The notes under the pieces: model-generated
What the model saw: only the letters and a program-made list of their open reading frames with translations
Told to the model about the DNA's origin: nothing
Databases searched by the model: none
Shown here: one piece after another, positions 5,241-37,785 of the stretch
How positions within the stretch are numbered: position 1 is the first letter of the stretch
Layout of the letters: the number at the start of each line of letters is the position of its first letter
NCBI GenBank assembly: GCA_017549125.1
Contig: JAFYVL010000004.1
Coordinates: 1 to 37,948, forward strand
DNA from: Oscillospiraceae bacterium
GTDB taxonomy: Bacteria > Bacillota > Clostridia > Oscillospirales > Oscillospiraceae
Direction of reading: 5' to 3'
DNA length: 37,948 nucleotides
Program-made: the position numbers and the translations under genes

Positions 5241-5263
5241 GTGCGGTATTTTAATTGAATGAT

Positions 5264-12704: not shown

Positions 12705-14159
12705 CTACACTGTAGCTTCCAGCTTGGCAACAGAGAAGTTTCCGTAGAAGTCGATTGCTTCTACAGTTACGGTGTATTCACTGCACGCAGGTAATTCATC
12801 CACGGTAATCTCGTAGGAGGCCTTTTGATCCTGAGCAGCCCAGAAATGAGATGCCCACAAAAGGGTTTTCAAGGTTTCACCGGTAGTAGTGTCCATCACA
12901 CAGATGCGGTAGCCTTCTGTTGTATAGAACTGCTCTGTATCGCTGAACGTAAGCTTCATGGAAATAGCAGAACCGGTTTTGATCAATTCTGCTGTCAGTT
13001 CATCCTCTGCGCTCCAGGTGAGAGTGGGTGCAGTTCGGTCAGATAGCTCATAGAGAAACTTTTCGTTCTGATTTTCAGCGGTAATGCCGTAGGGCACAGT
13101 ATAGCTTAAATGGGAATAGGCAGTTTCCGTTGCCATATTGAACACTGTGGCTGTAAAGCTTTCCTCGCCGTAACGCACATCCCAAACCAGGTGGGTCTTG
13201 CCGTGAAGAGCCTGACCCACAGGATCTGCACTTGTATAGCGGCGGTTTTCGATATTGGCATAATCCAAAGCTTCGCCCTTTGCATCAAATTCAATATCCA
13301 CATACTTACCGGTGGTATGCATACCCGTATTGATGGTGGTCCATTGATCCTGGGCAAAGCTTCTTTCGTGGAGGGAAGAGAAATGGGTATGAGAAGTTAT
13401 ATTCACCAAATGGGGGTACTTCTCCATCACTGCTCTCATACCAGTCACTACCGGGATTTCGGGCATACCATAGGATGCGCCGCCGTAGGTTTCACCCCAG
13501 GGATGATGGGATAGCAGATACACAGGCTCACCGGGATTTTCTTTGGTTGCTTGGGCGATCAGGCTATCGATCAGGGCAATATCCTCTGTGTGATAGCCGC
13601 CAATACCTGCACAGTATACCACCTGATTGCCACTCATATAAACCCTTTTGTCAGAGGGGGCTGCCACAACATAGCTGATGCCATTTACCTCTGTCAGATA
13701 GATACTTCCCTGGTCTGCGGTAAAGTCAGACCACTTTGTAGCAAATGCCGCGAAACGGTCAAACTGCTCTTCATAATCCGTCTCCTCATGTGCGCAGGCA
13801 TCGGTGGGATAAAACTCGTGATTTCCCATATTGAAAATAAATTTCACATTTGCCCGCTCCGGACTACCAAATACATCCCGAAATATCTTGTTTAAGGTCG
13901 CATAGTTTGCTGCATTACCCACATCCACCAAATCACCGTTGAAAATCACCAGATCCACATCATGATCCTTGGCATAGGTCAAGGTTTTTCTCAACTGATC
14001 CTGGCTGTGGGCATCAGCGGAAGAAACATGGACATCCGCCGTAATCAGAACCCGACCGGTACCAGGCTGATTTTGATTCCTGGCGGTCTCTTTTTTACAC
14101 GCTGCACACAACGACATAAGCATCACCACCATCAAACAAACGGTCAATATTCTCTTCAT
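12705..14159 (-). CDS. Metallophosphoesterase lipoprotein
   Basis: This 484-residue exported protein has a lipoprotein signal (MKRILTVCLMVVMLMSLCAAC, Cys about 21) and a calcineurin-like phosphoesterase domain. Metal-binding motifs are visible in order: ADVHVSS (D-x-H), GDLVDVGNAANY, NMGNHEF, SHHPWG and TSHTHFS. A C-terminal beta-rich part (about 380-484) resembles an Ig/fibronectin-like domain. The start at 14159 has AAAGGAG six bases upstream and gives the signal peptide at the N-terminus; the upstream extension to 14204 does not. It is the last gene of the minus-strand glycan cluster, separated from nahK by 201 bp containing repeat copy 2. Its substrate, a phosphate ester at the cell surface, is unknown. 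Confidence 0.88.
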   Translation of the reverse strand: MKRILTVCLMVVMLMSLCAACKKETARNQNQPGTGRVLITADVHVSSADAHSQDQLRKTLTYAKDHDVDLVIFNGDLVDVGNAANYATLNKIFRDVFGSPERANVKFIFNMGNHEFYPTDACAHEETDYEEQFDRFAAFATKWSDFTADQGSIYLTEVNGISYVVAAPSDKRVYMSGNQVVYCAGIGGYHTEDIALIDSLIAQATKENPGEPVYLLSHHPWGETYGGASYGMPEIPVVTGMRAVMEKYPHLVNITSHTHFSSLHERSFAQDQWTTINTGMHTTGKYVDIEFDAKGEALDYANIENRRYTSADPVGQALHGKTHLVWDVRYGEESFTATVFNMATETAYSHLSYTVPYGITAENQNEKFLYELSDRTAPTLTWSAEDELTAELIKTGSAISMKLTFSDTEQFYTTEGYRICVMDTTTGETLKTLLWASHFWAAQDQKASYEITVDELPACSEYTVTVEAIDFYGNFSVAKLEATV

Positions 14160-14203
14160 GGAGTTCTCCTTTGCGATCTTATGATCAATCGATGCATAAA
14201 GCA

Positions 14204-14242
14204 CCCTAACCAGGTCGGGTGAGAACCTGGGCTCGGTTAGGG
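14204..14242. repeat. Nested hairpin ahead of repeat copy 2
   Basis: CCCTAACC (14204-14211) pairs with GGTTAGGG (14235-14242), enclosing CCAGGT/ACCTGG around CGGGTGAGA. A comparable but weaker stem precedes repeat copy 1. It is in the 5' leader of the metallophosphoesterase gene and may terminate or attenuate transcription between nahK and that gene. Confidence 0.5.
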
Positions 14243-14331
14243 GAATCTTTTATTTCTTTTGGGGCAAAAGCAACTTTATAAAAACAACATCAGCCGCTTT
14301 GGTATTTGATCCCGGTTCCGTACAACCTTTC
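14235..14331. repeat. 97-bp direct repeat, copy 2
   Basis: This is the partner of 12561-12657, again positioned just downstream of a minus-strand stop codon (nahK) and in the same orientation. The two copies therefore bracket the metallophosphoesterase gene. It could be a dispersed intergenic element or a conserved 3' UTR structure. Confidence 0.8.
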
Positions 14332-14360
14332 ACATCTACAAAAACAGCGGATATTTGCTT

Positions 14361-15437
14361 TTAACCGCGGATCTCTTTTGCGATCTTAGCGACTATCGCA
14401 TTCATTTCGTCCCAATTTTTCAGCATATTAGCCGCCAGCGCCAGCTGGGTATGGCAACGAACCAGATTTTGCTCCGGATAATGGGTTCGGAAATACACGT
14501 CGCCGTTAATGTAGTCTGCCAGGAAGCGGATACCCACCTCCAAGGTCATGATCAATGCGCCGTAGGGCAGAACCTCCACCTCTTTATCTGTCAAGGCAGT
14601 AGCGGCGGTCAAGAAGCCCCTGGTGTATGCTTCAAAGCGCTCCATATCCAGTTTCATATTCTCCGGATTGGGATCGCCCTCCTGGGTGGTTGCTGCGCCA
14701 AAGCGAATGGAATCGCCAAAATCAAAGGCGCTCAAACCGGGCATGACCGTATCCAAATCGATCACGCACAGACTCTTACGGGTATTGGCATCCAGCAGAA
14801 CATTGTTCAGCTTGGTATCGTTATGGGTCACACGCAAGGGCAGCTCACCTGCCTCCAGCATTCTCTGCAATGTACCGCCCTTTTCTTCCAGAGACAGCGC
14901 ATACTCGATCTCCTTCTGCACCTGTGCCACACGACCCTTAGGATCAGCGGCAATGGCTTCCTTCAGCTGACGGAAGCGATCGGGGGTGTTGTGGAAATTG
15001 GGAATGGTCTCATAGAGGGTCTCTACAGGGTAGTCAGACAAGTAGCGCTGGAATGTACCGAACGCAATGGCACTTTCATAGAAATCTTCCAGGGTTTCCG
15101 GAGATTCCAGGCAAATGGCCTCTACGTAGTGATACATACGCCAGAATTCACCCTCTGCGTCCTCGTGGCAATAGCCGCCGTCCACAGTTTCCACATAACA
15201 CAGAGCGGAATTGGGATCACCGGTCTTTTCCCGGAGAAAACGGGTCACACCATTGGCATTGTCCACCACCTTCACGGGGTTTTTAAACACATACTTGTTG
15301 ATTCTCTGCAGAATGTACTTGTTGCCCGTATCGGTTTCCAGCTTCAAGGTCAGATTGATATGACCGTTGCCGTACTCAATACAGGATACAGGATTGCCGA
15401 TAATCTGAAAACTTTTTACTTGTACAGGAATATTCAT
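14361..15437 (-). CDS. nahK: N-acetylhexosamine 1-kinase
   Basis: This 358-residue cytoplasmic kinase of the aminoglycoside-phosphotransferase fold strongly resembles bifidobacterial NahK, which makes GalNAc-1-phosphate or GlcNAc-1-phosphate from the free sugar and ATP. Matching signatures include YGNGHIN and YILQRIN in the N-lobe, the catalytic loop LRVTHNDTKLNNVLLD (Asp207), CVIDLDTVMPG with the metal-binding Asp, FDFGDSIRFGA, and near the C-terminus RFLADYINGD...YPEQNLVR. The start at 15437 has GGAGGA seven bases upstream; an in-frame ATG at 15452 is earlier but has no ribosome site. It follows the DUF1284-like gene by 14 bp. The neighbouring GH20, GH36, GH109-like and GH123-like genes would supply its substrates. 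It is not an antibiotic-resistance gene. Confidence 0.88.
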   Translation of the reverse strand: MNIPVQVKSFQIIGNPVSCIEYGNGHINLTLKLETDTGNKYILQRINKYVFKNPVKVVDNANGVTRFLREKTGDPNSALCYVETVDGGYCHEDAEGEFWRMYHYVEAICLESPETLEDFYESAIAFGTFQRYLSDYPVETLYETIPNFHNTPDRFRQLKEAIAADPKGRVAQVQKEIEYALSLEEKGGTLQRMLEAGELPLRVTHNDTKLNNVLLDANTRKSLCVIDLDTVMPGLSAFDFGDSIRFGAATTQEGDPNPENMKLDMERFEAYTRGFLTAATALTDKEVEVLPYGALIMTLEVGIRFLADYINGDVYFRTHYPEQNLVRCHTQLALAANMLKNWDEMNAIVAKIAKEIRG

Positions 15438-15451
15438 GGGAATCTCCTCCA

Positions 15452-15928
15452 TTACTTATTTCTTGTTTGAATCAGCATTTCAAGGCCTCGCATGGTTAAC
15501 TCCACACGCTGTTCTCTTTGCCAATTCAACAAAATGATTTCGGGGGTCAGTTTTTCTCTCAACTGGGCAAAAACCTCATCAATGCTCCGTTCCTGACCCA
15601 GGGCAAATACCTCGGGCAAAACCTGCACCAAATCCGTGTCCATTTTCATGTTGTAGTCATATTTCCGGGTAAAGCCCTTATTGAATGCAATAGCCTCCGG
15701 GGTGGTGAATTGGTCGGTACAAATTCCATCCACCAACTTACAGCAATTCTGACAGGGGTCATCTGCGCCGGTTGTAAAGCTGACGCTGTCGATCTTACCG
15801 GCTGCAATCAATGTGCCAATATAGCCGTAATTACTGCCGCTGGCCATAACGGGATTTATCTCACCGTTATATGCCGCCATTTCATAGATATAATCCAAAA
15901 AATGATGGGGTTTCACTGTAATATGCAT
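15452..15928 (-). CDS. DUF1284-like cysteine-containing protein
   Basis: This is a 158-residue cytoplasmic protein of unknown function. The pattern is that of DUF1284: an N-terminal VKPHHFLDYIY (His8-His9), a Gly/Tyr segment, then DDPCQNCCKLVDGIC with Cys 59, 62, 63 and 70, followed by a helical C-terminus. The conserved cysteines suggest metal or iron-sulfur binding, which is not proven here. The ATG at 15928 has GGAG nine bases upstream. It lies 88 bp after the GH109-like gene and 14 bp before nahK, so it is probably co-transcribed with nahK. A TATAAT sits upstream in the gap (about 16002-16007, minus strand), but its -35 match is poor. Confidence 0.6.
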   Translation of the reverse strand: MHITVKPHHFLDYIYEMAAYNGEINPVMASGSNYGYIGTLIAAGKIDSVSFTTGADDPCQNCCKLVDGICTDQFTTPEAIAFNKGFTRKYDYNMKMDTDLVQVLPEVFALGQERSIDEVFAQLREKLTPEIILLNWQREQRVELTMRGLEMLIQTRNK

Positions 15929-16015
15929 AAAACAATTCTCCAAGCTTCTAAATTATGTAAAATTAGAATATAGATTTTTTCAGCATCATTTTTTTAAGAG
16001 TTTATTATACGATCC

Positions 16016-17233
16016 TTAAATCAGTTCTGCCACATCCTTGGGCTCTCTGAGAATCCACTTGCCGTTGGTAAAGTCGGGGATGTCGATGGGCATACCGCCA
16101 TTGGCGATGGATGCCTCACTCAAGCAGGTAATGACCATCCAGGCAGCAGCATCGTACACGTCGATGGGCATTTCCTCACCGGACAGAGCCGCGCCGAAGA
16201 AGGCCTGCAGAGTCAAGGTGTCCATGCCACCGTGACCGGCCTCGATCTGCTCCTGGGTGATGTTTCTCCATACCGCAGGAAGATTCTGCTCGTAAATTTC
16301 CTTGTTGTTGCCGGTGTATTCCTTCATCTCCAACTCATGGTTAAACTCCATATCGTCGGTCAGCACCACCTGGTCCGGTACAGAGAACAGACCCTTGGTG
16401 CCGCTGATGGTAAACTCACGGCTATAGGCTCTGGGCAAGCTGGTATCCAGCTTCAAAGAAATCAAGCTGCCGTCCGCACACATAATGTTGGTGCAGACCA
16501 CGTCGCCCTGGGCAAAATGCTTATCCTGCAGGAACTCGAATTCTTCCTTACCCTGGACAAAGGCACTAAGACCTCTGGCCTTGGATGCCATAGAGGTCAG
16601 CTTCAGCATCCGGTTACCGCGGTTGATATTCAGCAGCTTTGCAATAGGGCCTAAGTTATGGGTAGGATAGTTGTCGCAGTTGCGGATCAGATAGTTACGC
16701 AGACGGTAGTGACGATTCTTCACGCCGCCGCAGATCTCGCTGCGCAGATCATGGCCGTATGCGCCATGGGCATAGACCACCTCACCCAGCTTGCCCTCAC
16801 GAGCCATGCGGGTGGCAACCAGCTCTTCCTTACCGAAGCAGCAATTTTCCAGGAACATGAAGGGGGTTTTGGTCTCTTCCCAGGTATGCACCAAAGACCA
16901 GCAATCCTCCACGCTATAGCCGCCGCCCACTTCCAGACCGCAGATCTTTCCGCATTTCATAGCTTCTACCGCCAGGGGTGCATGGGCTTCCCAGGACGCA
17001 GAAATGATCACGGTGTTCACATTGGCATCCTGGAACAATTCGCTGTGCTTGGTGTAGCCGGTGGGGCGCATACCACGCTTTTCTTCCACACGCTTGATGC
17101 AATCTTCCACACGGTCAGCATACTCGTCACACAGAGCAACCACCTCTACCTGGGGGAAGTTATTCAAAACGTTGGTCAACAGGCCGTTACCTCTCTGACC
17201 CAGACCCAAAAATCCTAATTTAATCTTTTCCAT
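16016..17233 (-). CDS. Gfo/Idh/MocA family protein, GH109-like (possible alpha-N-acetylgalactosaminidase)
   Basis: This 405-residue NAD(P)-binding protein has an N-terminal Rossmann fold with GFLGLGQRGNG (residues 6-16). The features that set it apart from ordinary inositol or sugar dehydrogenases are HGAYGHDLR and NYPTHNLGPIAKLLNINRG (Tyr189, His192). They match the Tyr-Pro-Thr-His signature of GH109 enzymes, which cleave alpha-linked GalNAc by an NAD-dependent redox mechanism. No signal peptide is visible, so it should act in the cytoplasm. The start at 17233 has GGAG seven bases upstream and follows the phosphoesterase stop by 2 bp. With GH36, GH20 and NahK as neighbours, GalNAc release is the most economical role. 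A plain oxidoreductase remains possible. Confidence 0.72.
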   Translation of the reverse strand: MEKIKLGFLGLGQRGNGLLTNVLNNFPQVEVVALCDEYADRVEDCIKRVEEKRGMRPTGYTKHSELFQDANVNTVIISASWEAHAPLAVEAMKCGKICGLEVGGGYSVEDCWSLVHTWEETKTPFMFLENCCFGKEELVATRMAREGKLGEVVYAHGAYGHDLRSEICGGVKNRHYRLRNYLIRNCDNYPTHNLGPIAKLLNINRGNRMLKLTSMASKARGLSAFVQGKEEFEFLQDKHFAQGDVVCTNIMCADGSLISLKLDTSLPRAYSREFTISGTKGLFSVPDQVVLTDDMEFNHELEMKEYTGNNKEIYEQNLPAVWRNITQEQIEAGHGGMDTLTLQAFFGAALSGEEMPIDVYDAAAWMVITCLSEASIANGGMPIDIPDFTNGKWILREPKDVAELI

Positions 17234-17235
17234 TT

Positions 17236-18612
17236 TCATTCTCCAATCAAGGTTTGAATTTCCAGCGACAAAGGCTCGCTGGTCTTTTGATAGCACTCCC
17301 GGGCATACACAGAAACAGTATAGGCTGTGCCGGGGGTTAAATCGGTTAAGTAAATGGTCACCGGCTGGTTCAAATGTTCCGGTTCGGTGTCAATATGGTA
17401 AGGTGCGGCAACTTCCACGGTGGCTACCAGCTCACCGGCGGCATCCTTAATTTCCGCATAGTAGGATTGCACTACATCGCTAAAGCCCTCCGGGGCTTCC
17501 ACGGAAGCCGCAGGCACAGTAATGGCCGCAGAGGTGGCGGTCAGTTCGCTAACCTCCGGGGTTGCGCCCTCCGGGAATACAGGGGCATAGGCATTGGCTT
17601 CCCGCTTGGTATAATCGTAGGGGCGATCTTTCTTGTCCATGGCATCGAAAGTCCAGGGTACACCGATGACCTTGGCATCATCCATATTGATGGTACCAAC
17701 ACCGTCCACATATTCCAGCTCCAGGTCCGTGAAGCTGTAACGCTCCAAGGTCACCTGAGAACCGTCTACCACCATATAAAGGCCCTGCTGGGTCTTGTGC
17801 CGATCACCATTGATCTCCAACTGGCAGAAATCCTGCAGATGGGCATAGTGCAGTGTGCCGCAGGTCACCACCGTACATTGGGCAGCCTTCTTACTGGTAG
17901 ATTGCCAAATGGCACGCTCGTCTGTAATGGGAACATGGGTATGGCCTGTAAAGACCACGCAGTTATAAGCACGCTTCAAAGCATCCTGCAAAGGGATCTC
18001 GTAGCCGCCGTAGGTTGCATAACCGCCAATGACCGTACCTTCGGTAGGCACATGCTGTGCAAAGAAGAAAGGCTTATCCGTGCTAGCTTCCTGTGCCTTT
18101 TCCAGAAGCTTCTGAACCTCTGCACCGGCCTCCTTGCTAAAATGGACGCCCACGAACTGGTAGCCCTTGATTTCCTTGATCCAAGCCTCTTCAAATTCAC
18201 CCAGCTCATCGAACCATACTTCCTGCGCAACCATACCCTCGTCATGGTTGCCGTACACAAACAAAGGCTCTACGTGTTCACCGGTCAAGGGGTTGGTATT
18301 GTTGGGGAACACATCCAGCCAGATGGACTGGATATCTTCGATACCCACCAGGCTGTAGGTATCCAGCAGGTCGCCTGTGATCATAACACCATCCACACCC
18401 TTTTGCTGGAAGAAGCGCAAGGCCTTTTCAAATCGTTCCAGGGGGTTGTACACAGGAGGAGTATTGGTATGAATATCACTCAAAATACCAATGCGCAGCT
18501 CCTTGGTGGTAACTACCGATTTTTCTTCCTTCTCCTGGCCGCATCCAAACATAGAAAAAGACAATCCAGCCAGAATCATCAATGACAAGATCCAAGAAAT
18601 AATACGCTTCAT
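17236..18612 (-). CDS. Metallophosphoesterase lipoprotein
   Basis: This 458-residue calcineurin-like phosphoesterase has a hydrophobic export signal ending in a probable lipobox Cys (FSMFGC). Metal-binding motifs appear in order: LSDIHTN, TGDLLD, YGNHDEG, AQHVP and TGHTHVP. The last 100 or so residues are a beta-rich, fibronectin-like domain. It has the same layout as the phosphoesterase at the end of the cluster but is clearly divergent from it. It lies 15 bp after the GH36 gene and 2 bp before the GH109-like gene, with GAGG six bases before its ATG. Its presence inside a glycan operon suggests that some substrate carries a phosphoester, but no substrate is shown. Confidence 0.86.
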   Translation of the reverse strand: MKRIISWILSLMILAGLSFSMFGCGQEKEEKSVVTTKELRIGILSDIHTNTPPVYNPLERFEKALRFFQQKGVDGVMITGDLLDTYSLVGIEDIQSIWLDVFPNNTNPLTGEHVEPLFVYGNHDEGMVAQEVWFDELGEFEEAWIKEIKGYQFVGVHFSKEAGAEVQKLLEKAQEASTDKPFFFAQHVPTEGTVIGGYATYGGYEIPLQDALKRAYNCVVFTGHTHVPITDERAIWQSTSKKAAQCTVVTCGTLHYAHLQDFCQLEINGDRHKTQQGLYMVVDGSQVTLERYSFTDLELEYVDGVGTINMDDAKVIGVPWTFDAMDKKDRPYDYTKREANAYAPVFPEGATPEVSELTATSAAITVPAASVEAPEGFSDVVQSYYAEIKDAAGELVATVEVAAPYHIDTEPEHLNQPVTIYLTDLTPGTAYTVSVYARECYQKTSEPLSLEIQTLIGE

Positions 18613-18627
18613 AATAGTCCTCTTTTA

Positions 18628-20655
18628 TTACATAGTGGTGATTTCCAGGAATACAGCGCAAGGGTTTTGAGGACAGGTCAATTTCAGGCCGTCCTTGGTG
18701 TTTTCCAGCTGCACGGAAGTAACGGTGGGATAGGCGATTTTGGCAGTGTTCACACCCTCGGCAATGGGGACAAACAGTTCCTGCTCGCCCTTCAGATTCC
18801 ATACTGCCAGATAAATCTTGTTATCATTCTTCAGACCGGCACAGACCGTCTTTTCGCCAAACTGGGTAAAGCCCATGGGGAAATAAGGCAATGCTGTCTT
18901 TTTCATTTCAGACAGGGTGTTATAATACTCCACACCCTCACGGATCAGATCCATCTGATGCTCGTTCAAATAATCCAAATGGCTGGCCAGGTGCATTCTG
19001 CCCAGGAAGCTATTGATCATATTGATCACAATACGATCATCAGATACATCCTCGCCCTTTTCGCAATCAGATGCCACCGGGTAGCTCCAAACTGCAGCCT
19101 GCTCCGGCAGAACAGCTGCCAGAATGTTGCCGGCAATATAGGGATAGAGCAGATAGTTGGTCTGGTCGGAGGTAGACACCAGGCTATAGGCAGACAGGGT
19201 CTTATAGTCCATACGCATACCACCGGAAGAGCAGCCCTCAAAGACCACATTGGGGTACTTGGCAATCATCTCCCGAATCCACTCCAAGAAGGCATTGGCG
19301 GCCTCCTCCAGGCCTGCACCGGGGCTTTCTGCGTTCCAATCTGTACCGATGCCGCAATCCTGGTTGTAGTCACACTTAATATACTCTGCGCCATAGTCCT
19401 CCACCATACGGCGGATGGTCTCGGTCATATACTCCCGAACCTTGGGGTTACGGTAGTCCAGGAACTGGCGGTTCATCACCGTCAGACGCTTGCCGTGACG
19501 CTGGAAGAAGCAATCGTCATCGTAATGCTCCAGCATCTTCTGGCATTGCATACCGATAATTTCCGGCTCGATCCACAGGCCGGGCTTCATACCCAGGCTA
19601 CGGATGAAATCGGTGGTTTTCTTCACTCCCTCGGGGAATCGGGCTTTGCTTTCCAGCCAATGACCCACAAAGGGATAGACCTTGTCGCCGTCCTCTTCGT
19701 TATGCCAGCCGCAATCGATCACATAGTATTCCACACCGGTTTTGGCAACCACGGGGGCATACTTTGCGGTATTCTCTGCGGTGGGGCTGTCCCAGGACAG
19801 GTGCATATATTCATTGAAGATGGTGGGCAACTTCTCGTCAGCAGGGCTCACACCGGCAATATGACGGCGGTACTTGGTCATGTTACCGATCACATCATTT
19901 AAGTCCTTACCAAAGGAAAGGGACACGTAGGGCGTCACATAACTTTCGCCGGGCTGCAGGGTCTTGAACCAACCGCCAAAGGGATAGGTCGGGCCGCTTA
20001 CGTACAGATAATATCTGTCCACCGTATCAGAAATTTCGTAGTACCAGGAGCTATTGCTCTCCACCTGGAACATGAGGAAATTACCGGTTTTCCGGTTCTC
20101 CAGAATACCCATGGGCAGCTGTTCCTTGGTAGACCAGCTACCAACATTACAGCCAACCACTCTCTGCTGAGATTCGCTCAAGCCGCCGCACAGACCCAAT
20201 TCCCGGAAGTCCTTGGTCCTGGGCTGGCACTCTGCATGATGGCTCTGGAGGAAATTGGTAAAGAACATATCATCCGGCTCTTGCTTTTCGCCGAGACCCG
20301 ATACGCAGAAGGCAGAAACCTCTTCCAGCACAATGGACTCTGCGGTGATATTGGTCACCTTGGTCTGAATGCGCAAGGCATTGGTATCATCATAAGCTTC
20401 AAAGGTGGTTTCCGTCCGTACATTGGGGCTTTCCTGCACTACTGTTAAGGTATTGCCGGAAACCGTATGAGATTTATAGATCAACCGTCCTGCTTCAGAG
20501 GAACGGTACATTTTCGCACCTAGATGGGAATCCTTGTTTTCACCGGCTATCTGCACCTGCACAAAACCGCTGTCCAGGCCGGTAAAACCATCCAGCTGAT
20601 CCAGTTTGATCTGATTATCCGTCAGAGTATAACGCAAATTCTTAAATTGTAGCAT
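18628..20655 (-). CDS. GH36 family alpha-galactosidase / alpha-N-acetylgalactosaminidase
   Basis: This 675-residue enzyme has the GH36 layout: an N-terminal beta-supersandwich, a catalytic barrel and a C-terminal beta domain. Signatures are VIDCGWH, GMKPGLWIEPEIIG, the nucleophile region YIKCDYNQD (Asp429) and the acid/base region GCSSGGMRMDY...STSDQTNY (Asp497). The family cleaves alpha-Gal or alpha-GalNAc termini. The residue before the nucleophile is Cys, where most GH36 enzymes have Trp (KWD). No signal peptide is present, so it should work on imported oligosaccharides. The ATG at 20655 has AAGGA nine bases upstream; the upstream TTG at 20682 overlaps the previous gene and is less likely. 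Confidence 0.87.
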   Translation of the reverse strand: MLQFKNLRYTLTDNQIKLDQLDGFTGLDSGFVQVQIAGENKDSHLGAKMYRSSEAGRLIYKSHTVSGNTLTVVQESPNVRTETTFEAYDDTNALRIQTKVTNITAESIVLEEVSAFCVSGLGEKQEPDDMFFTNFLQSHHAECQPRTKDFRELGLCGGLSESQQRVVGCNVGSWSTKEQLPMGILENRKTGNFLMFQVESNSSWYYEISDTVDRYYLYVSGPTYPFGGWFKTLQPGESYVTPYVSLSFGKDLNDVIGNMTKYRRHIAGVSPADEKLPTIFNEYMHLSWDSPTAENTAKYAPVVAKTGVEYYVIDCGWHNEEDGDKVYPFVGHWLESKARFPEGVKKTTDFIRSLGMKPGLWIEPEIIGMQCQKMLEHYDDDCFFQRHGKRLTVMNRQFLDYRNPKVREYMTETIRRMVEDYGAEYIKCDYNQDCGIGTDWNAESPGAGLEEAANAFLEWIREMIAKYPNVVFEGCSSGGMRMDYKTLSAYSLVSTSDQTNYLLYPYIAGNILAAVLPEQAAVWSYPVASDCEKGEDVSDDRIVINMINSFLGRMHLASHLDYLNEHQMDLIREGVEYYNTLSEMKKTALPYFPMGFTQFGEKTVCAGLKNDNKIYLAVWNLKGEQELFVPIAEGVNTAKIAYPTVTSVQLENTKDGLKLTCPQNPCAVFLEITTM

Positions 20656-20678
20656 TGCAATGTATCCTTTCCTTATTC

Positions 20679-22475
20679 TCAAGCCAGTTTCTGTAATGCG
20701 GCAATACCGGCAGCAGGATCGGCAGTGATGGTCTGCAAAACATCCAGCACAGCCAAACGCTTTTGCAGGAACAGCTCCGGCTCGCCACGGGTCAGTGTCA
20801 TGCCCTTATACAGACCATCGTACAGAGGCTGCATCAAAACTTCGGGATCATGGTTTGTACCATTGGCAGCATTATACTGTAAGATGGCATCTTCGATCAT
20901 CCACAGGTATTCGTAGTCCTCCTGTCCCTCACGGATGGATTCCAGACGGAGCGTGGAGATAGGTTCCGTACCGCCAAATTTCTTTGCTGGGTACACCAAG
21001 CTTCCATCACCCATAGCAGCGCTGAAATCTACAGCATTTTCCCACAAGTCTGCTTTTTGGCTGGAATTGTTGACACCCCAGTACAACGTACCATCGCTGT
21101 CATAATCAAACTGCATCCAGCTGAGAATACGGCTGCCGATCAGCTCATCGTCGATATGGTAGGTGGGGAACGGCGGATAAGGCGTACTGCAACCGTACCA
21201 CCAAGCTTCCTCACCGCCCTGGCGGTCGGTGGAATTTTGGCGGTCATAGTAGTTCTGACGGGATTCTTCGCTGTCCCAGGAGGTCAGAATGGATGCCCAG
21301 GTCTGGACACCGCCTACGGTATCCGAACCCACCAAGTCCTCGTTATAAACCGTAGTAACCAGGCTGCGGACTTCCAGAAGGCTCTGATACAGGTCAGGAT
21401 AATCCTTCAGATACTCCTCCGCAACGGCATACTTACACTCCGTCAGCACCAGGTCACAGGCACGCACCTGCTCCAGCTTTGCACCGGAGGGGGCATCGAT
21501 CAGATTGCCCATGTAGAACAGGGCCTTGTTAAACAGGTCAATATCTTCCTTGCCGCTTTCACGGAGCGCCACATTTTTCTGTGCCATTTTGGTAAACAGC
21601 TCCATGAGTTTTTCTCTGGAAACGATGGGATTGCCGTTGGCATCGGTAGTCTCCGTATAGGGCAGACCGTAATTAGAAACCTTGGGATTTTCTGCGTAAG
21701 GTACCAGGAAATCCACAAAGGCATCGTAATCCTGGTAAATAGTGGGAGAAGGCAGCATGGGCATACAACGCTTTTCGATCAGCATATCATAATAAGCCTG
21801 TGCCACTTCACCGCTGTTTGTACCCTCGGCCTTAAACATATTGTCATATTCGATGCGGTAGCAGGAATGGGTATGTACCTCCTCCGGCATGGTGGCATCA
21901 TAGACCATGACTTCCAGGGGGATCTCAAAGGTCTCATCGTCCAGGCGCAGAGTTACAATGCCACTATACACACCGGCTTCTGCACTTTCCGGAATCTCCA
22001 CGTTGAACCACAAGCCCTGGTTATTACCGGCGGTAATGTAGTTCATTCTGGCTTTACGCATGGACTTATAAGGCACCAATGCATCCGGGTACATACCGTT
22101 ACCGGCAGCGGTATTATAAGAGCCTTCCACATTTATATACCACTGGCAAAAGACCTCGATCTTACTCTTACCGATCTTTTTGCCGTCGGCATTCAATAGG
22201 TCGTCTACCTCCACCGTGAAGGTTTCCACATCATTCTTGGGTGTAATGATCAGCTGGACGGACTCCACATCTCCACGGATGCCATACATCCGCAAGGTAT
22301 TGTCACGGCTTGCCATAACCTCGGTGTATTCATAGTCCTGCATGAAATTTTCCGTGTTATAGCCGTACCACAGCTTCACGGTCTCCGGCTTTTTGGGAGC
22401 TTTTTCTTCCCCACAGGCCGCCAACATGCTTATCAGCATCAGGCAAACCAAACAAACACTCAGTATCTTTTTCAT
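20679..22475 (-). CDS. GH123/DUF4091-like lipoprotein with altered catalytic pair
   Basis: This 598-residue lipoprotein (signal MKKILSVCLV...LAAC) has a GH123-type layout: an N-terminal beta domain (about 30-200), a catalytic barrel and the conserved LRLESIREGQEDYEYL segment of DUF4091/GH123. GH123 enzymes are beta-N-acetylgalactosaminidases that use adjacent Asp-Glu residues. Here the equivalent site reads IDAPSG (Asp327-Ala328), whereas both sister proteins have DEPS. The predicted general acid/base is therefore missing, and the protein may bind glycan without cleaving it or use another residue. It starts 1 bp after the previous gene with no clear Shine-Dalgarno, implying translational coupling. 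It is a paralogue of the lipoprotein at 24733-26547. Confidence 0.82.
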   Translation of the reverse strand: MKKILSVCLVCLMLISMLAACGEEKAPKKPETVKLWYGYNTENFMQDYEYTEVMASRDNTLRMYGIRGDVESVQLIITPKNDVETFTVEVDDLLNADGKKIGKSKIEVFCQWYINVEGSYNTAAGNGMYPDALVPYKSMRKARMNYITAGNNQGLWFNVEIPESAEAGVYSGIVTLRLDDETFEIPLEVMVYDATMPEEVHTHSCYRIEYDNMFKAEGTNSGEVAQAYYDMLIEKRCMPMLPSPTIYQDYDAFVDFLVPYAENPKVSNYGLPYTETTDANGNPIVSREKLMELFTKMAQKNVALRESGKEDIDLFNKALFYMGNLIDAPSGAKLEQVRACDLVLTECKYAVAEEYLKDYPDLYQSLLEVRSLVTTVYNEDLVGSDTVGGVQTWASILTSWDSEESRQNYYDRQNSTDRQGGEEAWWYGCSTPYPPFPTYHIDDELIGSRILSWMQFDYDSDGTLYWGVNNSSQKADLWENAVDFSAAMGDGSLVYPAKKFGGTEPISTLRLESIREGQEDYEYLWMIEDAILQYNAANGTNHDPEVLMQPLYDGLYKGMTLTRGEPELFLQKRLAVLDVLQTITADPAAGIAALQKLA

Positions 22476-22476
22476 A

Positions 22477-22980
22477 TCATTTACTCATGTAGCAGTGGTC
22501 ACAATACTCGTCGCCCTGCATGAGGGTATGGGTACGCTCAAACTGGATCTCGGGGTTGATGCCCTTGATCACTGCCGGATCGGTCATGCAGTACACATGG
22601 TAGCCGATGTCCGTCAGACCTGCCTTCTTACAAGCCTCGCAAACGGTGCAATGGGTGACCTTGAACTGTACCTTGTTGTCTCCTTCCCAATTTTCCTCAT
22701 ATTTCAGAGACTGCTTCAGAGGACCCCAGAAAAAGTCCACAAAGCTTTTTAGAGAAACATCGTCAATACAGGCTTCTACGGTCTCTCGCCAACCACGCTC
22801 GGTGCGGTTGCCGATGAAATCTGCAAACAGCTGTGCGCCCTTCTCCTCACCTTCCATCTCAATCAGATGGTTACGAAACTCCTGGAACAGACGCAGTTCA
22901 TGCTCCATGGCCTCAGCACTCAAGCTGTCACCAAACAAAGTTTTTTCAATTCTGGCTTTCTTTTCTTCCGGTGTCATCAT
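22477..22980 (-). CDS. L-2-amino-thiazoline-4-carboxylic acid hydrolase-like protein
   Basis: This 167-residue cytoplasmic protein has the pattern of the ATC hydrolase-like family: a helical N-terminal half, then THCTVCEACKKAGLTDIGY, YCMTDPAVIKGINP, and the C-terminal ERTHTLMQGDEYCDHCY. Some family members open a thiazoline ring to make cysteine, but most are uncharacterised, and this one sits in a glycan operon, so another reaction is likely. Six cysteines are clustered in the last 55 residues or so. Its ATG overlaps the preceding stop codon (ATGA), with AAGGA six bases upstream. I chose 22980; the next codon is also ATG. Confidence 0.6.
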   Translation of the reverse strand: MMTPEEKKARIEKTLFGDSLSAEAMEHELRLFQEFRNHLIEMEGEEKGAQLFADFIGNRTERGWRETVEACIDDVSLKSFVDFFWGPLKQSLKYEENWEGDNKVQFKVTHCTVCEACKKAGLTDIGYHVYCMTDPAVIKGINPEIQFERTHTLMQGDEYCDHCYMSK

Positions 22981-24722
22981 ACATTTTCCTTTCTTCTCAC
23001 CAAAGTTGCGCAAGCCTCCTTGCGGAAAGTGTCATAGTCATCCTGGGTTGCTAAAGAAATCTTGTGGAACGGAATCATAACCTCTCCGTGCTGGTTATAG
23101 AAGGTAGATACATCCCGGTTATGCAGAACCTTATCGTAAAGTTTCTTCGCAACGGCTCCATTATCTTGTTTCTCCAGCAACTGCAACAGTTCATAATCCT
23201 CCAAACCTCTTCTGAGGGCGAAGTAACGCAAAGCCAATTCCGGGGTGGCATCCGGCGCAGGATAGACCATATTGGTATCACCGGCAGGCCATTTGGAATA
23301 AGTAATGTCCTTCCGGGGATCAGCCGTCCACACCGTATAGTTCCAGCGCAAAAAACCGGCCAATCCAAAATAGGAGGCAAATACGGGGATATATCTGGCT
23401 TCTAACAAGCCACTATTGAGCACAATATTGGGCATCATAGGCCAGCAACATACATAGCAGGTAAAGCAACGTTCTCGATCTTCACGGAAGATCTTTTGCC
23501 ATTGTTCCATTGCCAAGCCAATGCCCGGAATAATGATGCAAAAATCCCGGATAATGTCCTTGAATTCATCAAAAAATTCCTTCTTATAGAATGCCGCTTT
23601 AAATTGGAATTGGGGCGCAATAGAACGAATGATCTCCAAAGTACCACGCAAGGCTGCATGATTGCTGGGCTCGTCTGCAATCACGCGCACTTTGTCGATC
23701 CAGCCCTTTTCCACAAAATGATCGTGGAGACTACGGATATAATCCTGAATATCTTCCGCCTTTCTCATATAGCGGTAGCATCCGTCCATATCCTTGTAGC
23801 GAATACGAATAGCCTCAGGCATTTGGGTATAATTTCCAAAACCATGTTCCTCGTTGACCCAGTTGCCAATCAAGCCAAACACCTCGATCTTCCGATCAAT
23901 GCCATAGCGAAAACACATTTCAATATAGCGATCCATAATGGAATAATCATAGACAAAGCCCGTCTCCGCCTTTTCCACCGGGATCATGGAATACTGGAAC
24001 ATATTGTTTGGGACTGGCTCTAAGAAGCAAGTCTGTCCGCTCCAAGGCACTTGGGTGGCAATGACCGTAATATTGGTTTGTCCCAAATCCGCCAGGGGTT
24101 TGATGTATTCCTCCATTAGTGCGAAATGCGCATCGGACCAATGGGGTACTGCGGCCTGCTTCGCAATGGAACTGTTATGCTGCCACAGATCCATTTCCAC
24201 AGACCAATTCTGGACAGCCGGTAATACATAGGGACTAACTTCCAGAGAATATGTAATTTCACCAATCACCTTTTCATCATCGAACAGGTGGGATTCCACA
24301 ATATCAAAACTTCCCACATAATGCCCGGGATTCACAGTTTCCGGCAATTCAAATCGAACAAACACCCCTTGGGGTACACCTGCCGGTGTGGTAGCTACCG
24401 TATCACGCATCAATCGGTCAGCATACTCCGTTCCATCGTTGTCCTTATAGATCACCATAAGATTGACAATGGGATCCAGTTGTCCCTTGTGGCGCAAATG
24501 TACCACATGGGTATCCAAATATTCAGAAAACCAAGGTTCTTCTCCAATACCCGCACACAGCCGTTTTGTACCTTGCAAAAGGATCTGGAAGGCCGCAAAA
24601 CTATTTCGGCAAGCAAACAAATCTATATGGGTACTATCAAAAGTACCATTATGGCTAATGCCGTCTTTTTGCGATATATGCAGCTTAAAGGATTCCGGTT
24701 GAACAGAATAAAACACCGACAT
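22977..24722 (-). CDS. GH123/DUF4091-like glycosidase, cytoplasmic
   Basis: This 581-residue protein lacks a signal peptide, unlike its two lipoprotein relatives. The N-terminal beta domain (about 1-165) is followed by a barrel containing VRVIADEPSNHAALRG, where Asp350-Glu351 fits the catalytic Asp-Glu pair of GH123. Near the C-terminus, FLRWNYTVWTADP, MVYPAPDATPELALRYFALR and LEDYELLQLLEK match the DUF4091/GH123 pattern. The expected reaction is release of beta-linked GalNAc from short oligosaccharides inside the cell. AAGGAG is six bases before the ATG and overlaps the end of the previous gene. It is only distantly similar to the two lipoproteins, so it is a separate subgroup and not a recent duplicate. 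Confidence 0.8.
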   Translation of the reverse strand: MSVFYSVQPESFKLHISQKDGISHNGTFDSTHIDLFACRNSFAAFQILLQGTKRLCAGIGEEPWFSEYLDTHVVHLRHKGQLDPIVNLMVIYKDNDGTEYADRLMRDTVATTPAGVPQGVFVRFELPETVNPGHYVGSFDIVESHLFDDEKVIGEITYSLEVSPYVLPAVQNWSVEMDLWQHNSSIAKQAAVPHWSDAHFALMEEYIKPLADLGQTNITVIATQVPWSGQTCFLEPVPNNMFQYSMIPVEKAETGFVYDYSIMDRYIEMCFRYGIDRKIEVFGLIGNWVNEEHGFGNYTQMPEAIRIRYKDMDGCYRYMRKAEDIQDYIRSLHDHFVEKGWIDKVRVIADEPSNHAALRGTLEIIRSIAPQFQFKAAFYKKEFFDEFKDIIRDFCIIIPGIGLAMEQWQKIFREDRERCFTCYVCCWPMMPNIVLNSGLLEARYIPVFASYFGLAGFLRWNYTVWTADPRKDITYSKWPAGDTNMVYPAPDATPELALRYFALRRGLEDYELLQLLEKQDNGAVAKKLYDKVLHNRDVSTFYNQHGEVMIPFHKISLATQDDYDTFRKEACATLVRRKENV

Positions 24723-24732
24723 AAAATTCTCC

Positions 24733-26547
24733 TTATGGGTTTGTGGTCAAAGCATTGATAGCCCCAGCGGGATCTGTAGTAAACTGTGCTAACAGCTCCA
24801 GCATTTCTGTGCGTCTTTGGGCAAAAAAGTCACTATTCTCTCGTTGGGGTTTTACACCCTCATACAGACCTTCATAGAAAAAGGCCATCAATTCTTTCGC
24901 ATCATAGTTGGTGCCATTGGCTTCGTTATAGGCCAAAATGGCATTTTCGATCATCAGCAGGCACTCATAATCCTCCATACCCTCACGGATGCTTTCCAGC
25001 CGTCGGGAAGAGACAGGTCCAAAGATGCCAAACTTCTCACCGGGATACAGCAGCTGTCCGTCACCGTTTACATCCAGATAAACCGACGGATAGGTATAGA
25101 TGTCCTCTGTCTGATAGTAATTGACACACCAGTAGATCATACCGTCTACATCATAGTCAAACATCATCCAGGGTACTAACCGGGATACAATGCCGTCATC
25201 GTCCATGTGGAAGTTGGCAAAAGGCACACGGGGGCTTTCACAGCCGTACCACCACAAGCCTTCGCCATATTCACGCTCAGAATTCTCACGACGGTTGTAA
25301 TAGCTTTCCCTCTGGGACTCGGAATGCCAGGTCTGGAACTGTCCGCACCAGGTCTGCACACCGCCCTCGGTATCAGAACCCACCATCTGATCGTTATAGG
25401 CCGAGGTCACAATATGGGGAACGGACATACAGGAATCATACAGATCCGGATATTGTTCCTTAAAATACTGATTGGCCACCTCTGCCTTACACTGGGTAAT
25501 GATCAAATCACATTCCCGAGTTGTAATCATACGTTCACCGGATGGCTCATCACAAATAGAACCCAGGTAGTACACAGCCTTGGAGAACAAGTCAATCTCA
25601 GAATCTCCTGCCTCACGCAGTTCTATATTCTTTTCTGCTAACGCAGATAAAACTTCCATCACTCTGGTTCTGGACACAAGTTTTCTACCATCATCCATAG
25701 TCTCTGCCGTATAGGGTAACGAATACGCAGAAACCATGGGATCTGCAGCCTTTTCAGCTGACCATGCAACAAAGGCATCCAAATTATGGACACTCCAAAT
25801 GGGATCCGGGGCTTTTGTGGGCATAATGCGCTTGCTTACCAGGAAATCATAATAGGCTTCGCCCAATTCCTCGGTGTATTCGCCCTCTCCCTCGTCCACC
25901 AGGTCAAACCAAATGGCAAACTGTGTTTTTACATGGTTTTCTTCCGGCATGGTTGCATCATAGACCGTAACCTCAAAGGGGATCTTGTAGGTTTCACCGT
26001 CCAGCACAAGCTTGCCACTTCCGGTATAGACACCGGCGGCCTGGTCAGAAGGAATATGGGCATTGAACCAAATGGCCTGATTCTGACTTGCCATGATGGT
26101 ATCACATTCCTCAGCCTTGTAGGCATCCATAGGCACTAAGGCATCCGGATAGAAACCATAATAGGCTTCATTGTTATAGGATTGTGTGATCTCCGTATAC
26201 CACTGCGCCAGAATCTCAAAGTGCTCTGCGCTGAGCACATCGCCGCTGGTAGTTTTCAGATCTCCCATTTGAAAGTCGAAGCTAGTAATATCCTTCTTAG
26301 GGGTTATCATCAGCTGGGCAGATTCCACATCGTTTCGAATGCACTGAAAGCGCATGGTAGCATCTCGCTGTGCCATCAGTTCAGGATATTCCATATCCTG
26401 CATGAGATTTTCTGTATTATATGCCCACCACAGTTTTACAGTTTCTTCCGCTTTTTTCTCTTCTGCGCAAGCAGAAAAACTGGTAGCGAGCATCATGATC
26501 GCCAGTAAGACAGCTAAGGATTTATACAGTTTCTTCATAACATACAT
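24733..26547 (-). CDS. GH123/DUF4091-like lipoprotein, intact catalytic pair
   Basis: This is a lipoprotein of about 604 residues (signal with FSAC lipobox) closely related to the protein at 20679-22475. Both begin their mature part with ETVKLW..YNTEN.MQD and share the N-terminal beta domain. The catalytic site reads SICDEPSGERM with Asp333-Glu334, as expected for GH123 beta-N-acetylgalactosaminidases. The C-terminus has RRLESIREGMEDYECL. It would act at the outer face of the membrane. AAAGGGG precedes ATG 26547 by three bases; the ATG at 26538 (MKKLYKSL) would also give a good signal peptide. The start follows the GH20 stop by 13 bp. Confidence 0.84.
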   Translation of the reverse strand: MYVMKKLYKSLAVLLAIMMLATSFSACAEEKKAEETVKLWWAYNTENLMQDMEYPELMAQRDATMRFQCIRNDVESAQLMITPKKDITSFDFQMGDLKTTSGDVLSAEHFEILAQWYTEITQSYNNEAYYGFYPDALVPMDAYKAEECDTIMASQNQAIWFNAHIPSDQAAGVYTGSGKLVLDGETYKIPFEVTVYDATMPEENHVKTQFAIWFDLVDEGEGEYTEELGEAYYDFLVSKRIMPTKAPDPIWSVHNLDAFVAWSAEKAADPMVSAYSLPYTAETMDDGRKLVSRTRVMEVLSALAEKNIELREAGDSEIDLFSKAVYYLGSICDEPSGERMITTRECDLIITQCKAEVANQYFKEQYPDLYDSCMSVPHIVTSAYNDQMVGSDTEGGVQTWCGQFQTWHSESQRESYYNRRENSEREYGEGLWWYGCESPRVPFANFHMDDDGIVSRLVPWMMFDYDVDGMIYWCVNYYQTEDIYTYPSVYLDVNGDGQLLYPGEKFGIFGPVSSRRLESIREGMEDYECLLMIENAILAYNEANGTNYDAKELMAFFYEGLYEGVKPQRENSDFFAQRRTEMLELLAQFTTDPAGAINALTTNP

Positions 26548-26560
26548 CTGCCCCTTTGTT

Positions 26561-28411
26561 TTACACAATACTTGCAGAAAATGCGGGAATCCAGAAATTA
26601 TTGCAGTAGCCCTCTGTATCGCCATAGAAATCATCGGGTCTGCAGTCGATGATCAAGCGAGCCTCGTCCAGTTCCTCTATGCGGTCGATCTGGCCGTCCA
26701 GATAGAGGTTGATTCTGCGGATAGAGGTGCGAATTCTGGACTCCAAGCCGCCCAAACGCAGGTCCAGTACCTCATAGCCATTGGCCTTGCACTCTGCCAC
26801 CCATTGGGTGTAGGTGCTTTCATGGAAGGCGATCATGCGGTTTAACAGCTCCGGCAAAGTCTCGTCAGCGATCTCCTTCAACGCTGCCTTGTCGCCGGAT
26901 TTGTATGCAGCCTGAGCATCCACACCTACGCGGCTCTTGATTTCCAGCACGCGGCACAGCTTTGCCAGGGTATCATACATATAGCCAAAGTTGGGGCTTC
27001 TCTTGCCGGCATCTCCAATAATCTGGGCAGCCTTTGCATACTTGGCAGGATAGCTTTCTGTGGTGTGGCGCTCTGCCAGACCACCCAAGATATCCATGTA
27101 CAACAGATATTTGGAGGGGTTGCTGGCATGACCGATCCAATGCTTGTCAGACAGCCAGTTAGTCATATCCAGATCCATCATATCCTGGAAGCTTTCACCG
27201 GTGCAAGCCAGCATTCTCTGGGCAATGACCTCGTCGCTCACATCCCCCTGGTAGCAGAACTCTGCGTACTGCTGCATCACAGGCAGAATGCACATGAAGG
27301 ATGCCTCGTTGCCGTTATCGCCCCAGGCGGTGACAAACACCTCGTCCACACCCTTTTCCAGGCAGGACTGCAGAGCCGTTCGAGTCTGGTAAATACTCTT
27401 CTTCAGGGCAGGACCATGACCCAGCCAGCGCCATGCGCCACCGGCAAAGATCAGCTTGTTATGGAATTTCTGGTGCATATCCAGATAATGGTCATACACA
27501 TCCTTGGTCTCGTGGTAGTAATCCCAGTAGACCAGTTCCACATTGGAGGGAACCAGGTCGATCACGGAAGGATCGATCTGAGAGCCTACAGGGGGATAAT
27601 ACTCACCCTCAAAGCCCAGACGGAAGAACATATCGCTCCAGATCATGGGCTCAAAGTCATACTGCTGGCAGATAGCATTCACTCTGTCCAGATGGCGGCA
27701 GAAAATATGTTCACGCTTTTCAAAGCCGTTGCGATCTAAGTACTTACCCAGACCCATCATATGAGCCTCGTCCATACCGATGTGAATGCGCTTGGTGCGG
27801 AAGCAGTTACGGCAGGTGCGGATCATGGCCTCGATGAGGGTATAGGTCTTTTCCTCGCCGCAGAGCAGAATATTGTTGCAATCCTTTACCTCGTCAAAGC
27901 AAGGCCAGCGCAAAGCGCCTTCCAGGTGTGCCAGGGTCTGAATACAAGGAATCAGTTCGATGCCGTAGTTGTAGGCATACTCGTCCATCTCCTTCAGCTC
28001 CTCGCAGGAGTAGCGACCACGCATATAACCGAAATAAGGATATTCGGGAATTTCATAGGTATCCTCGGTGTAGAGCATCAGAGTATCCAAGCCCATGGTT
28101 GCCATGTAGCGGATGAACTTCTTCACCACGTCCAGCTTCATGACACCGTTGCGGGAGCAGTCCAGCATCATGCCGTCCATCTTGAAACGGGCGGGCTGGG
28201 TGGTGGAATAATTCTCTTCCCCACTATGCTCAGCCAGCAGACCCAGGCCACGGAACAGTTCTACCCGACGGCCGTAGGTAATGGTGCAGGCATCGCCCTT
28301 CTTCTCTACAGACAAGGGCTTGCCGGGTTCATAGGATGTAGTAATTTGTATCTGGGCAGGAATCTGCAATTGGGCAGTAATTTCTGCCAGCTGGGAATCC
28401 ATAATCATCAT
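26561..28411 (-). CDS. GH20 family beta-N-acetylhexosaminidase
   Basis: This 616-residue enzyme begins with a small alpha/beta N-terminal domain (about 10-70), followed by a GH20 barrel starting at FKMDGMMLDCSRNGVMK. The catalytic motif is RIHIGMDEAHMMG with Asp214-Glu215, the pair used in substrate-assisted cleavage of terminal beta-GlcNAc or beta-GalNAc. The lack of a signal peptide and the overall size resemble the cytoplasmic GH20C type of Streptococcus pneumoniae. GAGG lies eight bases before ATG 28411. It is the first gene of the glycan operon, 120 bp below a clear promoter. It probably trims imported oligosaccharides and hands GlcNAc/GalNAc to NahK. Confidence 0.88.
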   Translation of the reverse strand: MMIMDSQLAEITAQLQIPAQIQITTSYEPGKPLSVEKKGDACTITYGRRVELFRGLGLLAEHSGEENYSTTQPARFKMDGMMLDCSRNGVMKLDVVKKFIRYMATMGLDTLMLYTEDTYEIPEYPYFGYMRGRYSCEELKEMDEYAYNYGIELIPCIQTLAHLEGALRWPCFDEVKDCNNILLCGEEKTYTLIEAMIRTCRNCFRTKRIHIGMDEAHMMGLGKYLDRNGFEKREHIFCRHLDRVNAICQQYDFEPMIWSDMFFRLGFEGEYYPPVGSQIDPSVIDLVPSNVELVYWDYYHETKDVYDHYLDMHQKFHNKLIFAGGAWRWLGHGPALKKSIYQTRTALQSCLEKGVDEVFVTAWGDNGNEASFMCILPVMQQYAEFCYQGDVSDEVIAQRMLACTGESFQDMMDLDMTNWLSDKHWIGHASNPSKYLLYMDILGGLAERHTTESYPAKYAKAAQIIGDAGKRSPNFGYMYDTLAKLCRVLEIKSRVGVDAQAAYKSGDKAALKEIADETLPELLNRMIAFHESTYTQWVAECKANGYEVLDLRLGGLESRIRTSIRRINLYLDGQIDRIEELDEARLIIDCRPDDFYGDTEGYCNNFWIPAFSASIV

Positions 28412-36920: not shown

Positions 36921-36975
36921 TCTAGCAAGATTGTGTTAAAAATATGCCATTTTGTCTTGTTGGAGGGGATTTGCC

Positions 36976-37785
36976 ATGCAAAGCTACTTAAGTGAAACCC
37001 ATAGTCAAATCAAGTTGCGTCTGCACTATCATCACAACTATCCCCCGCACTTCCACAGAGAGTTAGAACTGATCTTTATGCAGGACGGTTGCAACCGTGT
37101 CAACATGAATGGTGTCACCTATCAAATTCCTGCAGGCAGTGTCTTTTTAGCACCTCCCAACACCATCCATTCCTACCAAAATCCCCTCGGGGAATGTACC
37201 TCTCTGCTTTTGATCGTAGATCCCAGCTTACTGGTAGGACCGGGATCTCAATTATCGTCCCAAACACCCTTGAGCCCTATATGGAGTGACCCAGAGAAGA
37301 CCAGCGATATCTGGTCAATGATTCAATTTGCCTATGACCATGGACGATCCATGTCCAGAGACAGCTTTATTCTGCTGATCTCCACCATCATTTCTATGGT
37401 TTTGGATAACATGCCCCTAAGCAATTCAGACCAACCCCGCCGCACAGAACAACGGATTTTGAACTATTGTCAGCAGCATTATCACGAACCTATTACATCC
37501 GATATGGTTGCTGCCGCTGTGGGTCTCAGTCGCAGCCGTCTTAGCCATATTTTCAATAATGTTTTGCAAATCCCCTTCCCCGTCTATATCAACGGTCTCC
37601 GGCTCAATGATGCCTTATCTCTATTAACCAATACAAAAATGTCCACCATCGATATTGCCGCACGAGCCGGCTTTACCTCTCTACGGAACTTCAATCGTGT
37701 CTTTACGGAAAAATTTGGTTTTACGCCTTCCCAATGTCGCAAGCAGCATCTGGAAAAGAATTTGCAATCCTTTAACTTTAAATGA
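36976..37785 (+). CDS. AraC-family transcriptional regulator
   Basis: This 269-residue regulator has an N-terminal cupin-type sensing domain (HYHHNYPPHFHRELEL and IPAGSVFLAPPNTIH, about 18-75) and a C-terminal AraC DNA-binding domain with two helix-turn-helix units (about 165-265). The first helix-turn-helix is MVAAAVGLSRSRLSHIF, the second TIDIAARAGFTSLRNFNRVF, closing with FGFTPSQCRK. Such proteins usually sense a sugar or related small molecule and activate nearby genes. It is divergent from the giant SGNH gene and is the only regulator seen next to the glycan cluster, so it likely controls one or both. The start at 36976 has GGAGGGG seven bases upstream. Confidence 0.92.
   Translation: MQSYLSETHSQIKLRLHYHHNYPPHFHRELELIFMQDGCNRVNMNGVTYQIPAGSVFLAPPNTIHSYQNPLGECTSLLLIVDPSLLVGPGSQLSSQTPLSPIWSDPEKTSDIWSMIQFAYDHGRSMSRDSFILLISTIISMVLDNMPLSNSDQPRRTEQRILNYCQQHYHEPITSDMVAAAVGLSRSRLSHIFNNVLQIPFPVYINGLRLNDALSLLTNTKMSTIDIAARAGFTSLRNFNRVFTEKFGFTPSQCRKQHLEKNLQSFNFK

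Follow-up and report, generated by a model that had tools for sequence, protein, structure and literature searches.

The polysaccharide utilisation locus BT4240-50 of Bacteroides thetaiotaomicron unites a GH109 alpha-N-acetylgalactosaminidase and a NahK-type N-acetylgalactosamine (GalNAc) 1-kinase in one locus for GalNAc salvage; this Gram-negative system also includes a SusD-like protein, a GH2 enzyme and an M60-like peptidase, and 'GH123' does not occur in the main text of the report (PMC11992087). A second point of reference is NgaCa, an oligosaccharide-releasing beta-N-acetylgalactosaminidase of 'Group 1' (PMC11087588). Here we describe a gene cluster of an Oscillospiraceae bacterium on contig JAFYVL010000004.1 (37,948 nt, the whole of which is called the window), one of 93 contigs in a metagenome-assembled genome (MAG) of 2.29 Mb and 71.5% completeness, designated G000. 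Like BT4240-50, the cluster combines GH109 with a NahK-type kinase, to which it adds GH123, GH20C, GH36 and lipoprotein phosphoesterases. The locus is of a known kind, serving to release and salvage GalNAc, and takes an unusual form; what is unusual is the division between surface lipoproteins and signal-less enzymes, the presence of a pseudo-GH123 and the expansion of GH123 across the genome. Families, gene order, motifs, a predicted fold and genome context favour a glycan utilisation operon centred on GalNAc, with a probability of roughly 0.66. The features concerned are these:

36952..37785, plus strand: AraC-family regulator, divergent from the SGNH giant (HTH_18 73 bits, AraC_binding 44 bits)
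28653..36797, minus strand: SGNH/GDSL giant, secreted, 2714 aa (Lipase_GDSL_2 184 bits in 3 stretches; repeated modules)
26561..28411, minus strand: GH20 beta-N-acetylhexosaminidase of GH20C type (Glyco_H_20C_C 173 bits; 2epk 442 bits)
24733..26538, minus strand: GH123-like (Group 1-like) lipoprotein, D-E present (best PDB relative 8k2f, NgaCa, E 1.2e-21)
22977..24722, minus strand: canonical GH123 beta-N-acetylgalactosaminidase, D-E present (GH123_cat 262 bits; BvGH123 141 bits)
22477..22980, minus strand: ATC_hydrolase-family protein (PF14196, 83 bits; 4-bp overlap with GH123)
20679..22475, minus strand: altered GH123-like lipoprotein, D-A for D-E, putative non-catalytic glycan-binding paralogue (alignment, codon, predicted fold)
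18628..20655, minus strand: GH36-type (Melibiase) alpha-glycosidase (Melibiase 117 bits)
17236..18612, minus strand: lipoprotein metallophosphoesterase MPE1 (Metallophos 48 bits; C-terminal fn3-like match of 19 bits, below cut-off)
16016..17239, minus strand: GH109-family NAD-dependent glycosidase (Glyco_hydro_109_C 168 bits; 2ixa 256 bits)
15452..15928, minus strand: 158-aa orphan with a cysteine-rich stretch, no family (Pfam)
14361..15452, minus strand: NahK-type N-acetylhexosamine 1-kinase (4ocu 286 bits)
12705..14159, minus strand: lipoprotein metallophosphoesterase MPE2 (Pfam)

Open reading frames (ORFs) and Pfam delimited one tight minus-strand run from 28411 to 14361, in the order GH20C, GH123-like lipoprotein, canonical GH123, ATC_hydrolase-like protein, altered GH123-like lipoprotein, GH36-type enzyme, MPE1, GH109, orphan and NahK-type kinase; with refined starts, the successive gaps were 22, 10, -4, 1, 23, 15, -4, 87 and -1 bp. 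This bears out the initial annotation, in which the GH20, GH123-like, GH36 and GH109 proteins and the kinase were packed in one direction and gaps from GH20 to GH109 ranged from -4 to 24 bp (-4 to +23 bp after refinement). Its inventory was incomplete, having overlooked the ATC_hydrolase-like protein, the orphan, MPE1, MPE2, the SGNH giant and the divergent AraC gene. MPE2 starts 201 bp past NahK, and the SGNH giant ends 241 bp ahead of GH20C. A promoter and terminator scan of the locus returned sites no more frequently than shuffled sequence did, and the operon is therefore proposed from spacing and strand; given the 241-bp distance, the SGNH giant would belong to the same transcript by presumption. 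Read by eye, both GH123-like proteins and both phosphoesterases carry lipoprotein signals and the SGNH giant begins with an ordinary signal peptide, while no signal peptide was seen on GH20C, canonical GH123, GH36, GH109 or NahK. Of the parts expected in a Gram-positive polysaccharide utilisation locus, the cluster has a regulator and glycosidases; a sugar transporter was missing from the 19 window proteins scanned, on a contig that ends at 37948, but is present at paralogous loci.

For the signal-less enzymes, Pfam and PDB sequence matches back both the family assignments first proposed and the logic of GalNAc release followed by salvage through NahK. The canonical GH123 matched PF13320 above its curated cut-off across model positions 1-324 of 324 (262 bits) and aligned best to BvGH123 (141 bits) and next to CpNga123 (75 bits), its ADEP falling opposite MDER of BvGH123, so that the D-E pair is present; it differs from these enzymes in being signal-less and in standing in a run with NahK and GH109. 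GH20C aligned near full length to 2epk and 5a69 (442 and 431 bits), which we take to be streptococcal GH20C enzymes, and has the same C-terminal domain in a different genomic context. In the GH109-family protein, the C-terminal domain (168 bits) and the NAD-binding Rossmann domain (31 bits) both exceeded their cut-offs, which supports a predicted alpha-N-acetylgalactosaminidase by family. AgaB was the best PDB relative of the GH36-type enzyme, and the Asp residues in 'cDyn' and 'tsDqT', presumably the catalytic pair, align to AgaB. The NahK-type kinase matched 4ocu and 4wh1 at 286 and 285 bits across about 344 residues (15-358 of 363 for 4ocu); a GH112-type phosphorylase was not found among the 19 window proteins scanned, a difference from those NahK systems. 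Release of GalNAc and its 1-phosphorylation by the window enzymes are thus predicted functions that the matches support.

The two GH123-like lipoproteins are of another kind. It had been proposed that the locus held two intact and one altered GH123; this stood for the D-E motif, but the three proteins are not alike, since one is canonical and signal-less and the others are lipoproteins matching only the last third of GH123_cat (215-322 and 218-322 of 324). Within the D-E motif of GH123-type enzymes, Asp serves to hold the acetamido group, and Glu is the acid-base (PMC11087588). The intact lipoprotein (24733-26538, a GH123_cat/DUF4091 match) keeps D-E along with the further residues that Groups 1-4 have in common, as placed by our own mapping from published NgaLy numbers through sequence alignment. 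Both lipoproteins resemble the oligosaccharide-releasing Group 1 beta-N-acetylgalactosaminidases: NgaCa is the best PDB relative of the intact copy and the nearest fold of the altered one. Identity to NgaCa is about 21%, however, one window copy is without the catalytic Glu, and the window lipoproteins stand in an operon with phosphoesterases.

In the altered copy (20679-22475), D-A replaces D-E. Asp was present in 28 of 28 aligned rows and D-E in 27; this alignment took in four of the six GH123-like giants of G000 and was made without seven more distant rows, L043 (truncated), and L061 and L084, two loci where genes had been missed or split by the ORF caller. The four aligned giants (L035:7902-9800, L032:9735-11629, L037:1885-3783 and L039:9450-11349) have Ser at the position of NgaLy W431, by the same mapping, and keep D-E. 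Decay of a functionless gene, or an assembly artefact, might account for a change that is the sole D-A among these rows and falls in a protein whose terminal branch is longer than that of any other lipoprotein of G000 and the related genome G029 (0.49, against 0.29 for its sister in G029, which is 58% identical and carries D-E). Either is improbable, given an intact, stop-free frame of 598 aa with a lipoprotein signal, the retention of the other eight of nine residues conserved across groups (own mapping) and a confident predicted GH123-like fold. The Ala codon, GCC, is two changes from any Glu codon, and a single sequencing error was rejected as the origin for that reason. Substitution of Glu by Asp or Gln has been reported to lower activity (PMC11087588). 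The D-A lipoprotein is most likely a surface glycan-binding protein, as predicted from these features.

The combination of GH123, GH109 and NahK had been put forward as one not previously recognised. Among 295 genomes of the order, all three families were present anywhere in at least 50, this one included, and among the places entered lay within 25 kb of each other here alone; to that extent the claim stands. The pairs recur, however: within 4 kb, GH123 and NahK were neighbours in at least 10 other genomes, GH109 and NahK in at least 6 and GH123 and GH109 in at least 1, these being lower bounds as 122 GH123, 150 NahK and 108 GH109 places were entered by hand and weaker GH123 and GH109 matches were left out. 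In one GH109-NahK locus, the pair is followed by genes resembling NagB on visual inspection and an AGE-type epimerase in BLAST. A GH109 with a GalNAc 1-kinase is itself published (PMC11992087); a search by title of the open-licence literature found no description of the present combination.

G000 contains 16 matches to PF13320, of which 2 are canonical, 8 are lipoprotein-sized and 6 lie in open frames of 1265 to 3134 aa. A PF13320 match of some kind occurred in 110 of the 295 genomes. On first look, G000 had 15 candidates and the other genomes listed had at most 8 (G206); these are first-look numbers, with 7 scored in each of the top genomes (G000 15(7), G206 8(7)), and genomes without a GH123 match are mostly absent from that listing. 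All five GH20C_C matches of G000 share their contigs with GH123 proteins. At E 1e-20, G029 was the only one of 36 other genomes of the genus to yield a relative of the altered lipoprotein. The nearest named relatives among those listed are gut MAGs, the first being an Oscillospiraceae MAG from goat rectum, so the bacterium is probably a gut Clostridium from an animal host.

Several of these GH123 copies lie in informative surroundings. On contig C67, a minus-strand run comprises a repeat-rich giant, GH20C, a trehalase-family protein, a GH123-like lipoprotein, an FGGY kinase, RhaA (572 bits) and a class II aldolase; of the paralogues compared, this lipoprotein comes nearest to the intact copy of the window (75% identical), and since its gene is flanked by gaps of about 340 bp before and 185 bp after, a single C67 transcript is supposed rather than evident. 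Giants on C23 (3128 aa) and C63 fuse a GH123-like domain to phosphoesterase domains (metallophosphoesterase on C23), and on C23 a GH78-type gene follows about 3 kb further on. On C11, a NahK gene (G000:C11:43168-44250) 97% identical to that of the window, in what looks like a recent duplication, adjoins another phosphoesterase; a GH20C gene and two GH78-type matches lie no more than about 10 kb away. Of 42 listed loci with GH123-like relatives, three are from G029 and a further 15, from Bacillota, were mapped; the maps are approximate, because the ORF caller was greedy and made some antisense calls. Homologues of ATP-binding cassette (ABC) permeases, identified by BLAST similarity, lay near the GH123-like gene in 13 of the 15 (missing at L059 and L061; on the other strand at L063 and L065), and a similar binding protein, again by BLAST, in 9. 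Pfam was positive for 9 of 10 transporter proteins, a binding-protein candidate at L058 having no family. These loci suggest that fragments are imported and that the glycan can be a source of rhamnose as well.

Over 1908 aa, the SGNH giant shares 53% identity with a giant on C22 that likewise precedes a GH20C gene; directly after that GH20C lies a MOFRL/DUF4147 gene (L091:2514-3743), presumably of glycerate-kinase type. Homologues of the AraC regulator were found by BLAST at paralogous loci on C11, C18, C23, C32 and C63. The orphan (15452-15928) gave one Pfam match at E 0.068, below its cut-off and taken as chance; the 294 further genomes in the order sample gave no match to it, and it was dropped as a conserved partner. 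MPE2 is 76% identical to a domain within the GH123-like giant on C23 and had no PDB relative at E 0.1; MPE1 had four weak PDB matches (E 0.038 to 0.095).

From this evidence we infer the localisation, activity, import route and substrate of the locus products as follows. Outside the cell, the intact GH123-like lipoprotein, its D-A paralogue, the two phosphoesterases and the SGNH giant would bind, de-esterify and cut a GalNAc-bearing glycan. ABC transporters whose genes lie elsewhere in the genome would take up the fragments. In the cytoplasm, the canonical GH123, GH20C, GH109 and GH36 may take off beta-GalNAc or beta-N-acetylglucosamine (GlcNAc) and alpha-GalNAc or alpha-galactose, and NahK would then make the N-acetylhexosamine (HexNAc) 1-phosphate for catabolism.

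Several observations weigh against this reading. The scan of 19 window proteins turned up no transporter, on a contig that ends at 37948. The best NCBIfam model for the GH36-type enzyme was a beta-L-arabinopyranosidase, at 326 bits against a cut-off of 1100; with the score so far below that cut-off, GH36 was given no substrate specificity. Phosphoesterases are expanded throughout G000, with 30 PF00149 matches spread over 20 contigs; 21 of these matches fall within open frames longer than 1200 aa. They occur on five of the eight GH123 contigs, where 1.7 would be expected (p = 0.011; by length, 9 against 4.9, p = 0.047), but the genome-wide expansion makes their place at this locus only weakly specific, and weakens the phosphoesterase as a specific mark of GH123 loci. 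The evidence on substrate comes from paralogous loci rather than from the window locus. Finally, G000 contains one sialidase-type stretch (BNR_2, G000:C76:34123-34944, in a 3511-aa open frame) and four sulfatase-family matches, which leave room for host glycans.

Host mucin or glycosphingolipid glycans had in fact been named as the source in the initial annotation, and this was not supported. A locus stripping alpha- and beta-GalNAc from mucin O-glycans or glycosphingolipids would fit the activity of B. thetaiotaomicron GH109 and GalNAc kinase on mucin-type substrates (PMC11992087), that of a Bacteroides GH123 on ganglioside sugars (PMC7531118), the sialidase-type stretch and sulfatase matches, and the goat-rectum relative. 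It is doubtful nevertheless, as RhaA, a kinase and an aldolase share the gene run of the intact lipoprotein's sister copy, and G000 has three GH78-type matches, spread over two of the contigs with GH123 proteins. Rhamnose is not known to be an animal sugar. The sialidase-type stretch is the only one, and no match to a GH29 fucosidase was found in G000, an absence that counts for little because the MAG is 71.5% complete. A complex microbial glycopolymer containing HexNAc, and in the sister locus rhamnose too, is somewhat more likely than mucin; a plant source of rhamnose is a further possibility.

One such microbial substrate would be the wall glycopolymers of Gram-positive bacteria, containing polyrhamnose, alpha- and beta-GalNAc, beta-GlcNAc and phosphodiesters, which would feed both the operon and its sister loci. 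In EPA of Enterococcus faecalis, a polyrhamnose, beta-GlcNAc, GalNAc in both alpha and beta form and phosphodiesters are all present (PMC7188991), and Sumida et al. propose long repeating exopolysaccharides for the oligosaccharide-releasing type (PMC11087588). The rhamnose gene run of C67, which holds GH20C and a GH123-like lipoprotein, the GH78-type gene near the giant on C23 and the phosphoesterase fusions of two giants agree with such a polymer. Its chances fall a little short of even: no rhamnosidase was found among the 19 window proteins scanned, phosphoesterases are widespread across the genome, plant pectin in a herbivore gut would be an alternative source of rhamnose, and the C67 transcript is subject to the gaps described above.

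Elsewhere in the window, a tandem pair of endonuclease I proteins (1054 and 1115 aa) with List_Bact repeats (5683-8847 and 8902-12249, plus strand), an adjacent pair of PGA_cap-family proteins (404-1777 and 1810-3201, minus strand) and IstB/DnaC-like and DnaB_2-type genes adjoining tRNA-Glu and tRNA-Met (3208-5618, minus strand) were observed.

More tentatively, and with the odds against it, the organism may be a specialist on microbial wall glycopolymers made up of rhamnose, HexNAc in alpha and beta form and phosphodiesters, in which a Group 1-like GH123 has grown to eight lipoproteins and six giant surface proteins (two of them phosphoesterase-fused), partly coupled to ABC importers, with one copy now a surface glycan-binding pseudoenzyme. 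The 16 GH123-domain proteins, in loci with rhamnose, phosphoester and HexNAc functions, offer a concrete and testable class of substrate. If true, this would provide an account of how Clostridia in the gut reuse wall polymers from neighbouring microbes, and the D-E and D-A paralogues of one operon would be a natural pair for studying the change from glycosidase to binding protein.

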